Source of the DNA: Xanthobacteraceae bacterium
GTDB lineage: Bacteria > Pseudomonadota > Alphaproteobacteria > Rhizobiales > Xanthobacteraceae
Assembly: GCA_030037885.1 (NCBI GenBank)
Contig: JASHPU010000257.1
Coordinates: 1-64,000 of the forward strand
DNA: 64,000 bases
Direction of reading: 5' to 3'
Each line of letters starts with the position of its first letter. The first letter of the stretch is position 1. The position numbers were made by a program, and so were the translations under genes. The notes below the pieces were generated by a model. It searched no databases. It saw only the letters and a program-made list of their open reading frames with translations, and was not told where the DNA came from. Positions 4,812 to 51,306 of the stretch are shown in pieces.

Positions 4812-5875
4812 GGCCTGTCCTCGTTCGACTTGACGGCGGCAGACTTGGTGGCGGCCGACTTGGTGGCAGCAGACTTGTTGGCAGCAGACTTGCCGCCGCC
4901 ACGGCCCGCAACATCCGCTTTGACGCGGTTTTGCCCGGCAATGACCGCGCCTTCGCCGATCGTCACGCCTGCGGCAATGCAGACCTGCCCTCCTATTATG
5001 ACAAAATCCCCCGCGGTCACGCCACCTTCCAGGCCTGCCTGCGGCGCAACCAGACAATGGCGGCCGAGGCTGACATCGTGCCCGATCCGCACGAGGCTAC
5101 CAATGGCGGTGCCCTCGCCGGTCACGGTGTCGCGGATGCAACCACGGTCGATTGTGGAATTGGCGCCGATTTCCACGCCGTCCTGGATGATGACGCGGCG
5201 GGTTTGCGGGATTTCAAGATGCTGATCGGCGTCAGACGGAAAGCCGAACCCCGCCTCCCCGATCCGCACGCCGGAATGAATGGTGACGCGATCGCCGATC
5301 AGGGCGTGCAGAATGGTGACGCCGGGGCCGACCGCGCATTGCCGCCCGATGCGCACGTCAGGGCCGATAGCTGCGCCGGCGCCGATCACCGTGCCGGCGC
5401 CGATCTCGGCGCGCGGTCCGATCACGGCTAGAGGATCGATGGCGACGCCGGCCTCGATCCGCGCCGTGGCGTGCACCTGGGCGTCCGTGGCGCGACCGCC
5501 GCCCTCGAACAGCGAGGATGGTCGCGGCGTCTCGGCAAACAGCGCGCGCGCCACCGTCGCAAAGGCACGGTACGGCGCGTCGGTGACGAGCGCGGCGAGG
5601 CCGGGCGGCGCCGACGACACAAGGCCCGGCAGGACAAAACAGGCCCCGGCATGGCTTGCCGTCAGCTCATTCCGGTGCGCCGGCTGGTCGATGAAGCAGA
5701 TGTCGGCCGCGCCGGCCTCATCAAGCGCGGCGATATTGCGGATGCGGCGCTCGCGCAGCTCTTGCCGCGCCAGTTGCGCGCCGGTCAGGTCGACGATGGC
5801 GGCGACGGTCAGCTCCGCGCTCGGCCGCACGGCGGCCGGATATGTGTCCGCCGCTGGCGAAGCTCGTGGCCGCAT
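4808..5875 (-). CDS. lpxD: UDP-3-O-(3-hydroxyacyl)glucosamine N-acyltransferase
   Basis: Hexapeptide repeats and lpxD-fabZ-lpxA context; C-terminal KSAA-repeat tail. Confidence 0.92.
   Translation of the reverse strand: MRPRASPAADTYPAAVRPSAELTVAAIVDLTGAQLARQELRERRIRNIAALDEAGAADICFIDQPAHRNELTASHAGACFVLPGLVSSAPPGLAALVTDAPYRAFATVARALFAETPRPSSLFEGGGRATDAQVHATARIEAGVAIDPLAVIGPRAEIGAGTVIGAGAAIGPDVRIGRQCAVGPGVTILHALIGDRVTIHSGVRIGEAGFGFPSDADQHLEIPQTRRVIIQDGVEIGANSTIDRGCIRDTVTGEGTAIGSLVRIGHDVSLGRHCLVAPQAGLEGGVTAGDFVIIGGQVCIAAGVTIGEGAVIAGQNRVKADVAGRGGGKSAANKSAATKSAATKSAAVKSNEDRP
4827..4901. repeat. 15-bp coding minisatellite (five units) encoding KSAA(N/T/V) repeats in the LpxD C-terminus
   Basis: gactt... 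units begin at 4827, 4842, 4857, 4872 and 4887. Confidence 0.85.
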
Positions 5876-47832: not shown

Positions 47833-48573
47833 TTACTGGCGCCTCGGATCGGTTGCGTCGGCAATCGGCGGCTTTGGCATCGGCGCTTCGTGGACGTTGG
47901 CGGCGGAGCCGGGTTTTTTGCCCTCGTCGTCCGGCGAATCACCCTCGCCTTGCGCACCCGTTTCATCGGCGAACAGCGATGGATCGGTCAACGTCATCGG
48001 TCCGCCGACCGGCGCCGAATTGATGCGGTCGATCTGCGGACCGGCCTTGACCGTGCGTCCGGCGGACAGATCGTTGATGATGCGCGTCAAGCGGTCGGGC
48101 GTAAGATCCTCGTAATAATCGGCGTTGATCTGCACCATCGGCGCGTTGACGCAGGCGCCGAGGCACTCGACCTCGACCCAGGAGAATTTGCCGTCGGCGC
48201 TGACCGCGTTCTCGTCGCCGATCATCCGGCGCAGCACTTTCTTCAGCTCGTCGGCGCCGCGCAGCACGCACGGCGTCGTACCGCAGAATTGCACGTGGAA
48301 TTTGCCGACCGGCGCCAGGTTGAACATAGTGTAGAAGGTCGCGATTTCGAGCACGCGGATGTTCGCCATGCCGAGCAGGTCGGCGACCGCCTCGATCGCC
48401 TTCTGCGGCAGCCAGCCGCCGCACTGCTGCTGCGCCCGCCACAGGATCGGGATGACCGCCGACTGCTGCCGGCCGCGCGGATATTTCTCGATCTGCGCCC
48501 TGGCCCAGCCAAGATTCTCGGACGTGAAGGCGAAGCTCGGCGGCTGTTTCTCGGCAAGGCGACGCACGCTCAT
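47833..48573 (-). CDS. nuoE: NADH-quinone oxidoreductase subunit E with C-terminal extension
   Basis: Thioredoxin-like [2Fe-2S]: [14 protein letters not shown]...[16 protein letters not shown]. Confidence 0.94.
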
Positions 48574-49760
48574 CGGTCGACCTCGCCGAACACGATGTCG
48601 ATCGAGCCGAGCACCGCCGAGACGTCGGCCAGCATGTGGCCGCGGCAGAGAAAATCCATCGCCTGCAGGTGGGGGAAGCTCGGTGCGCGGATCTTGCACT
48701 TGTACGGCCTGTTGCTGCCGTCGGCGATCAGATAGACGCCGAATTCGCCTTTCGGCGCCTCGACCGCAGCGTAAGCCTCGCCGGCCGGCACCTTGAAACC
48801 CTCGGTGTACAGCTTGAAATGATGGATCAGCGCCTCCATCGAGCGCTTCATCTCGGCGCGGCGCGGCGGCGCGATTTTACGATCTTCGATCAGTACGGGC
48901 CCCTGCCCGTCGGGCGCGCGCAGCTTGTCGATGCATTGCTTCATGATGCGTATGGACTGGCGCATCTCCTCCATGCGTATCAGATAGCGGTCGTAGCAGT
49001 CGCCGTTTTTGCCGACCGGAATGTCGAACGCGAGCTCGGAATAGCATTCGTAGGGCTGCGCCCGGCGCAAATCCCAGGCGGCGCCGGAGCCGCGCACCAT
49101 GACGCCGGAAAAACCCCGCGCCCAAGCGTCTTCCAGCTTGACCACGCCGATACCGACATTGCGCTGCTTGAAGATGCGGTTGTCGGTGAGCAGCACCTCG
49201 ATATCGTCGCAGACTTTCAGGAACGGATCGCAGAATGCCGCGATGTCGTCGATCAGCTGCGGCGGCAGGTCCTGGTGCACGCCGCCGACGCGGAAATAGG
49301 CCGCGTGCAAACGCGAGCCGGAGGCGCGCTCGTAGAACACCATGAGCTTCTCGCGCTCCTCGAAGCCCCACAGCGGCGGGGTGAGCGCGCCGACGTCCAT
49401 CGCCTGCGTCGTGACATTGAGCAAATGCGACAACAGGCGGCCAATCTCGCAGTACAGCACACGGATGAGCTGTGCGCGCCGGGGTATATCGATGCCGAGC
49501 AGCTTTTCCGCCGCCAGGCAGAACGCGTGCTCCTGGTTGATCGGCGCGACGTAATCGAGCCGGTCGAAATACGGAATCGCTTGCAGATAGGTCTTGTGCT
49601 CGATCAGCTTCTCGGTGCCGCGATGCAGAAGGCCGATATGCGGATCGACGCGCTCCACCACCTCGCCGTCGAGCTCGAGCACCAGCCGCAGCACGCCGTG
49701 CGCCGCCGGGTGCTGCGGCCCGAAATTGATGGTAAAGTTGCGAGTGGAGGCCTCTGTCAT
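48570..49760 (-). CDS. nuoD: NADH-quinone oxidoreductase subunit D
   Basis: [47 protein letters not shown]. Confidence 0.96.
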
Positions 49761-49779: not shown

Positions 49780-49814
49780 GCGAATGGCGAATGGCGAATG
49801 GCGAATGGCGAATG
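49780..49814. repeat. Tandem heptamer array (GCGAATG)x5, left arm of candidate four-helix-bundle element
   Basis: Five exact consecutive 7-bp units. Confidence 0.95.
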
Positions 49815-49830
49815 GTGCGCGCGTCGGATA

Positions 49831-50208
49831 TCAACGCTTCTCCTGCAGCGAGCGAATGAGCAAGCGAAGCATCTTTCCCAAAGCCTCGCATTGTTGCATC
49901 GGGCCGATTATCTCGCCGCTCTTTATCAGGCCGACGCATGCGGCCAGCTGTAAATGCGTCTCCAATTCCTTCAAAGAACCCTGAGCGATACGAAGGTATT
50001 GGATAAAGGATTGGGTATTCTCCCGACCGTGACCTTCCGCGATATTCGCCGGTATCGATGCCGCCGCTCGCCGGATCTGAGCAGCAAGTCCGAACATCTC
50101 CTCTCTCGGGAAAGCGCGAGTGAGGCGATAGCTGAGTTCGGCGAGAGTCATTCCCTCCTGCCAAACACGAAGGTCGCGATAGGATTTTATCGTTCGACCG
50201 CTCGACAT
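49831..50208 (-). CDS. Four-helix-bundle protein (23S rRNA intervening-sequence-protein-like family)
   Basis: [82 protein letters not shown]. Confidence 0.9.
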
Positions 50209-50214
50209 TCATCT

Positions 50215-50247
50215 CTATTCGCCACTCGCTATTCGCCATTCGCCATT
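50215..50247. repeat. Inverted heptamer array (ATTCGCC/ACTCGCT)n, right arm of candidate element
   Basis: ATTCGCC ACTCGCT ATTCGCC ATTCGCC ATT at 50217-50247, reverse complement of the left-arm unit. Confidence 0.92.
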
Positions 50248-50681
50248 ACCATCTGCAAATCTGCCGCCTTTTTGGCCTTGGCGGCGAGCCGCCCATTAAA
50301 CCTGTCCCACTTCACCACGAAGCGTTCGTGGCGGCCTTCGCCGATCAGATCGATGCCGTCGTGGGCCTTGACCTTGAAGGTGATCCGATTGTCAACGATC
50401 TCGGTTACTTCGACGTCGACCGTTACCGTCAACCCAGGCGGCGTTGCGGCGAGATGGCTGACATCGACGTGCACGCCGACGCTGCCTTCGCCGGGATCGA
50501 GATGCGGCGCCAACAGCTGCGTGCAGGTCCACTCCATCAGCACGATCATGAAGCCGGTGGCGAACACCTTCGGCATCGCCGCGATCTCGGGCGCCTCCGG
50601 ATAGGTGTACGGCACCGTCTTGTTCTCCGGCACCCTGTAGGCGAAGCGGTGGGTAAGCCCCCGTTTGAGCGTGGGTTTCAT
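50229..50681 (-). CDS. Thioesterase, FlK (fluoroacetyl-CoA thioesterase)-like hot-dog fold
   Basis: MKPTLKRGLTHRFAYRVPENKTVPYTYPEAPEIAAMPKVFATGFMIVLMEWTCTQLLAPHLDPGEGSVGVHVDVSHLAATPPG; last residues MANGE* lie in the heptamer repeat. Confidence 0.85.
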   Translation of the reverse strand: MKPTLKRGLTHRFAYRVPENKTVPYTYPEAPEIAAMPKVFATGFMIVLMEWTCTQLLAPHLDPGEGSVGVHVDVSHLAATPPGLTVTVDVEVTEIVDNRITFKVKAHDGIDLIGEGRHERFVVKWDRFNGRLAAKAKKAADLQMVMANGE

Positions 50682-50682
50682 C

Positions 50683-51306
50683 TCAACCCCCCTGCCCGCC
50701 GCCCGGCTTCGACGCCTTCTCGTCGCCGGGCAGGACGTAGTCGGTGCCTTCCCAAGGCGACAGGAAATCGAAGGTGCGGAATTCCTGGGTCAGCCGCACC
50801 GGCTCGTAGACGACGCGCTTGAGTTCGTCGTCGTAGCGCACCTCGACAAAGCCGGTCAGCGGAAAATCCTTGCGCAGCGGATGGCCCTCGAAACCGTAAT
50901 CGGTCAGGATGCGGCGCATATCCGGATGGCCGGTGAACACGATGCCGTAAAGATCGAACACTTCGCGTTCGAACCAATCGGCGCCGGCGTAAACGTCGAT
51001 GATGGACGGGACCGGCATCGTCTCGTGGGTCGCCGTCTTCACGCGCACGCGCACGTTATGCTTGGGCGAGAGCAGGTGATAGACCACGTCGAAGCGCCGC
51101 TCGCGGCTCGGCCAGTCGACCGCGGTGATATCGATGATGCAGCAGAACTGGCAGCGCGGGTCGTCGCGCAGAAAGCGCATCACCGCGACGATGTCGGCGG
51201 CGCTGGCGGTGACGTTCAGCTCGTGAAAGTCCACGCTATAGGCAGTGACCGCGTTGGGCAGCGCGGCAGCGATGGTCCGGCCGAGCGTATCGAGCGTCTC
51301 GTTCAT
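50683..51306 (-). CDS. nuoC: NADH-quinone oxidoreductase subunit C
   Basis: [43 protein letters not shown]. Confidence 0.96.

Follow-up and report, generated by a model that had tools for sequence, protein, structure and literature searches.

Inverted heptamer arrays around a four-helix-bundle gene: a candidate class of minimal insertion elements in bacterial operons and 23S rRNA

In REP/BIME systems with RAYT, a gene is flanked by inverted short repeats and the same repeats are dispersed through the genome without the gene, an arrangement like that of the four-helix-bundle (4HB) element described here. Tandem heptamers are themselves known as dispersed intergenic repeats: GGGAATC and GGGGAYT in Xanthomonas and Nostoc, the STRR of cyanobacteria and TAACTGA in Beggiatoaceae, with about 70 of the Xanthomonas arrays forming convergent pairs (PMC4692102, PMC4679880). 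The author of the Beggiatoaceae study raised, as speculation, the idea that what moves might be a protein binding the repeats (PMC4679880); the text of neither paper mentions a 4HB/S23 protein. Proteins of the 4HB family (S23p, or 23S rRNA-IVP) are known from intervening sequences (IVS) of rRNA. In Coxiella, tandem GACAGAT heptamers lie 5' of the S23p ORF of an IVS that has been called a selfish element and that RNase III cuts from the transcript, and a solved relative of the 4HB protein is a pentamer (PMC4990558). The family PF05635 and the DGR protein Avd have been treated as homologous (PMC10053308). Heptamer arrays and S23p-bearing rRNA IVS have been known separately (PMC4692102, PMC4679880, PMC4990558), and in the openly accessible literature that we searched we found nothing that joins heptamer arrays to the 4HB family outside rRNA IVS.

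The locus studied here lies in a window of 64 kb, by which we mean the whole stretch of DNA that was analysed. A preliminary description had claimed inverted heptamer arrays bracketing one intact 4HB ORF, situated between nuoD and the thioesterase/nuoC genes; the first part was confirmed by TRF and by the PF05635 (23S_rRNA_IVP) match, which far exceeds the curated cut-off of 33.8 bits, and the second by the matches to PF00346, PF22636 and PF00329 (Table 1).

Table 1. The 4HB element and its host operon in the window.
Feature	Position	Strand	Evidence
4HB (S23p / 23S rRNA-IVP) gene, 125 aa, sole gene of the element	49831..50208	minus	PF05635, 120 bits
5' arm, G-rich on the coding strand, units TGGCGAA/TAGCGAG/TAGCGAA	50217..50247	minus	TRF, 83% match (ATTCGCC x4.4 on the forward strand)
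3' arm, C-rich on the coding strand, (CATTCGC)5.1	49780..49815	minus	TRF, 100% match (GCGAATG x5.1 on the forward strand)
Upstream host gene, FlK-type thioesterase	50229..50681	minus	PF22636, 118.6 bits
Downstream host gene nuoD, complex I 49-kDa subunit	48570..49760	minus	PF00346, 400 bits
Host gene nuoC, complex I 30-kDa subunit, 5' of the thioesterase gene	about 50683..51306	minus	PF00329, 168 bits

The two arms are the best two period-7 arrays of the whole window. The 5' arm ends 9 nt from the 4HB start codon and the 3' arm lies a short way 3' of the stop codon. The last codons and stop of the thioesterase gene (...MANGE, stop) fall within the 5' arm, so that the array provides the stop codon of its upstream neighbour. 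The window contains no rRNA, and the element sits between two protein genes rather than inside a 23S rRNA gene. Its only ORF with a family match is the PF05635 gene; no Y1 (HUH) transposase is encoded in the element and PADLOC returned no defence match. Inverted arms are present, and the flanks of related empty sites are too diverged to define a target-site duplication. The thioesterase gene between nuoC and nuoD is fluoroacetyl-CoA thioesterase-like, and the junctions of relatives in the genus align to it too. Elsewhere in the window a 15-bp tandem repeat, GACTTGGTGGCAGCA (x4.4, 4827-4892), is unrelated to the element.

We sought flanking arrays beside 4HB genes elsewhere, using 80 homologous loci drawn from a one-genome-per-species collection, of which 79, the window included, had enough flank. 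Period-7 arrays occurred on both flanks at 59 of these 79 loci, against 1 of 405 control positions, which is far beyond chance; every other period from 3 to 13 was found at no more than one of the 79, and period 14 passes as twice 7. Where arm units were common to both sides they were inverted in 60 loci and direct in 2. The shared anatomy is a G-rich 7-bp array 5' of the start codon and an inverted C-rich counterpart 3' of the stop, and it was found in Alphaproteobacteria, cyanobacteria, planctomycetes, acidobacteria, gemmatimonadetes, chloroflexi, and beta- and deltaproteobacteria. In a second sample, Pseudomonadota genomes picked without regard to similarity to the window protein, the family was present in 63 of 399 genomes; arrays were found on both sides by the strict measure at 29 of 59 loci and were strong on at least one side at 45 of 59. 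Polarity is nearly constant, with G exceeding C in the 5' arm of 123 of 130 loci and C exceeding G in the 3' arm of 127 of 130. At 71 of 74 loci the upstream gene has its stop codon within -15 to +10 nt of the array start, and often the array contains it. Heptamer arms also flank cyanobacterial and Riemerella plasmid copies, the Riemerella copy having sufB on one side and an iron-sulfur assembly accessory gene on the other.

A core motif common to all units has no more than marginal support, at 3.34 bits where shuffling reached up to 3.22. Unit-by-unit mirroring of the two arms, as hairpin-templated correction would leave, was not found (0.80 for a locus's own arms, 0.82 for swapped arms). We also dropped a comparison of neighbour-gene orientation by longest ORF, because antisense ORFs in GC-rich DNA make the longest ORF unreliable. 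At many loci (e.g. L039, L040 and L043) the innermost unit beside the 4HB start codon reads TAGGGA(TG); this resembles a Shine-Dalgarno sequence, and the 4HB gene may thus draw its ribosome-binding site from the array.

About 44 different heptamers occur among 118 loci, and mapping them on a tree of 166 4HB proteins revealed that the repeat unit goes with the protein clade and not with host or locus. Copies at the hibadh junction form one clade, all with TAGGCAG units, and copies at spwe form another, all with 8-bp units (TAGGGCAG); because one clade uses 8-bp units, we abandoned a strict 7-bp rule. At the spwe-junction loci L325, L328, L331, L332 and L287, where this sister 4HB clade has 8 bp in place of 7, the unit reads CAGTAGGG, with up to about 20 copies in one arm. 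A single clade present at two loci, nuo and alphaE, has TAGCGAA-type units throughout, and planctomycete and acidobacterial proteins nested in a mostly alphaproteobacterial clade have GCGA-type units. At the nuoC-nuoD junction the patristic distances of 4HB and NuoD proteins are unrelated (Spearman 0.04, permutation maximum 0.27), and unit identity correlates with 4HB distance (0.42) far better than with NuoD distance (0.10). The NuoD proteins of the loci L034 and L226 are sisters, yet the 4HB proteins of these loci belong to different clades with different units. We therefore conclude that this junction has been occupied repeatedly.

Empty sites were also sought. In a rhizobial genus (g51), probably Mesorhizobium to judge from its resemblance to two named loci, L068 and L085, 51 of 61 genomes contain one to five PF05635 genes. 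Four junctions of co-directional genes in this genus are, depending on the genome, either empty or occupied by arrays and gene, so that presence/absence polymorphism at the same sites among close relatives is seen at all four; at three of them gene-less inverted arrays with assorted units also occur. Some alphaE copies consist of an apparent 3' end of the gene with one arm, and are deletion derivatives. Gene and arrays act as one unit: at fixed junctions of co-transcribed genes, or within 23S rRNA, it may be there in full, be missing, or be represented by arrays only.

Other palindromic repeats occur at positions of this kind. At the hibadh junction, L426 and L427 have a different palindromic repeat (TGCATGTCGCCCAAAAGTG...) where other genomes have heptamer arrays or the 4HB element, and L428 (G495) is a near-spacerless palindrome in which (TAGTGAG)n runs straight into a long inverted TGACTAC array. 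At L240, L270 and L279, repeats of the GTCATTGCGAG...GCAATCCAG type or the GCCCGGG type stand exactly where sister species have heptamer pairs; these intergenic spots are landing sites common to several repeat families.

The window copy itself seems to have resided in the nuoC-nuoD region for a long time. None of the 19 relatives of the genus that were searched has the 4HB gene, and nuoD-thioesterase junctions in genus relatives (L172, L153, L148) contain one-arm heptamer remnants without the gene, which suggests loss of an older element. Since all 19 lack the gene and some retain array remnants at the junction, the window copy is not a fresh insertion.

These observations bear on the possibility that the 4HB gene is an immobile, vertically inherited host gene, with its arms a regulatory or RNase III-processed hairpin co-evolving by slippage and gene conversion. 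The arms do form a strong RNA stem: in the window element, read as operon-strand RNA, they pair with each other and leave the gene in the loop (z = -4.5). It is also true that the hibadh and the spwe copies each form a single clade, and that most gene-less arrays in the window's genus lie at positions common to sister species and differ mainly in unit number. We nevertheless judge such immobility distinctly improbable: each of the four junctions is empty in some close relatives, the 4HB and NuoD trees are unrelated, one junction can be occupied within a single genus by 4HB clades that differ in their units, and gene and unit type are shared across phyla. The same gene and repeats at the same nuo position in all relatives, with a vertical phylogeny and no other flanked copies, are not what is seen. 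From presence/absence, tree incongruence and clade-specific units, we therefore regard the gene with its arms as a discrete insertion element.

Gene-less arrays are far more numerous than genes. The window's genome has one PF05635 gene, yet a heptamer pattern of two units matches it 87 times, where the reversed control gave 2 matches. The arrays are mostly paired, as a G-rich array, a spacer of 10-57 nt and a C-rich array, and there are about 40 gene-less array loci. Their presence in the window's own genome counts in favour of the mobile element that had been proposed. Four sister species among the 19 genus relatives have 29-90 pattern matches and the other fifteen 1-12; the 4HB gene was not detected in the four array-rich assemblies, which are incomplete, and arrays persist there. 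In the window's genus, g1, many gene-less pairs are at orthologous positions in sister species with differing unit number; relatives also show some of these sites empty.

Dispersed gene-less arrays reach their highest numbers in genomes that have a 4HB gene of the matching clade. In g51, octamer matches outside the gene's own locus had a median of 49 in genomes with the 8-bp-unit gene and 3.5 in those without it (P = 0.0009, kinship ignored), and TAGGCAG matches a median of 22.5 with the cognate gene and 8.5 without (P = 0.003, kinship ignored). Genomes with the 8-bp gene that lack the hibadh gene have only 0-17 TAGGCAG matches. When one heptamer served for all, genomes with and without the gene differed only weakly (P = 0.07); the difference was clear once gene variants were paired with their own unit. 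From these counts and from the agreement of unit with protein clade, our best inference is that a 4HB protein recognises the unit of its own element and helps arrays to spread in trans.

The arrays might instead be the mobile part, moved by an unrelated host activity such as an IS200/IS605-type Y1 transposase, as in REP/RAYT, or by hairpin-driven template switching, with the 4HB gene a passenger or a domesticated array-binding regulator. This would suit the great excess of gene-less arrays and their persistence where the gene is undetected, the solo arms and deletion derivatives, and the 4HB protein, in which family-profile searches recognised no catalytic domain. A passenger, however, is not expected to dictate the unit, which tracks the 4HB clade across hosts and loci, and genomes with a given 4HB gene are enriched in the arrays cognate to it. 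We think spread of the arrays by such an unrelated activity rather unlikely, and favour an element in which the protein takes part.

That protein belongs firmly to the S23p family (TIGR02436, 115 bits, cut-off 24). Its AlphaFold model (pLDDT 94.6) has four helices, and in Foldseek searches matched Xanthomonas XCC0516 (2gsc, TM 0.87), BT_0352 (2rld, TM 0.78) and Avd (4dwl, TM 0.76), as well as the DGR RNP 8ub7. Residues L13, P34, Q44, R47, N55, I56, A57, E58, G59, G77, S78, E81, E83 and T84 are invariant in 49 relatives. The structural likeness to Avd, the published treatment of the two as homologous (PMC10053308) and a distant similarity in sequence (21.6 bits with the Avd model NF033474, below its cut-off of 80) would all fit retro-mobility, in which the 4HB protein acts as Avd does with a reverse transcriptase (RT) supplied in trans. 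Among the 61 g51 genomes, however, RT occurs in 24 of the 51 with the 4HB gene and in 5 of the 10 without it (Fisher P = 1), and three single-contig genomes (G130, G482 and G487) contain genes and arrays and lack any RVT_1 match. We conclude that RT is not required, and consider retro-mobility extremely improbable.

The same anatomy occurs in rRNA. One homologue, L312, is a genuine 23S rRNA IVS, its 4HB ORF in sense orientation within a helix tip near position 1218 of the LSU model and its heptad arms reading GGATTCAGGAATCAG... and CTGATCCCTGATCCCTGACCTCTGA. The same genome also holds copies outside rRNA, one with clear arrays (L232) and one with weak arrays (L309).

We consider it likely that the window harbours a small insertion element, consisting of inverted 7-bp (in one clade 8-bp) arrays around a 4HB gene, that spreads by protein-aided copying of its arrays and is tolerated through RNA processing. 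The 4HB protein would recognise the array that belongs to it, in the form of single-stranded DNA or a hairpin RNA, and with host replication and recombination enzymes would help to copy or insert arrays, both those of its own element and, in trans, those of gene-less pairs. Operons and rRNA would tolerate the insert because the arms can fold into a long stem excisable from the transcript, as the Coxiella 23S IVS and RNase III suggest. The preliminary description had proposed a minimal mobile element that ends in tandem repeats, carries a single cargo gene and lacks a transposase, and the comparative tests support it: flanking arrays recur beside other 4HB genes, and empty, gene-less and gene-bearing states occur at the same g51 junctions. 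To judge from sequence comparisons, such elements would form a widespread class, with tandem-heptamer ends, one 4HB/S23p gene and MITE-like derivatives, and we infer that they move. Whether they are a separate, very widespread class of mobile elements, in which a non-enzymatic 4HB protein specifies and spreads its own repeat and of which 23S IVS are the rRNA-inserted members, is to our minds evenly poised.

If this interpretation is right, it joins the S23p/IVP proteins, the origin and mobility of rRNA IVS, and the abundance of intergenic 7-bp tandem repeats, and would account for heptamers being the commonest long simple repeat of bacterial genomes. A small protein with no recognised catalytic domain would then specify and spread a short DNA repeat, with a binding specificity that differs by clade (7 or 8 bp), and the unrelated small ORF found between genes of conserved operons (nuo, suf and others) would be accounted for.

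Each of the known systems shares part of this anatomy. Avd is alike in fold, whereas the window protein scores below the Avd model cut-off and the element has one gene, with neither a reverse transcriptase nor a linked template repeat. Unlike REP/BIME with RAYT, the 4HB element has no Y1 transposase; its ends are lineage-specific tandem 7-bp arrays and its protein is a small four-helix bundle. The 23S rRNA IVS share with it the S23p family and an ORF in the loop of a terminal-inverted-repeat stem, while the window copy differs in its position in a protein-coding operon, its explicit tandem heptamer arms and its dispersed gene-less copies. With the heptamers of Xanthomonas, Nostoc and Beggiatoaceae, finally, the 4HB arrays have in common that they are dispersed, intergenic and tandem.
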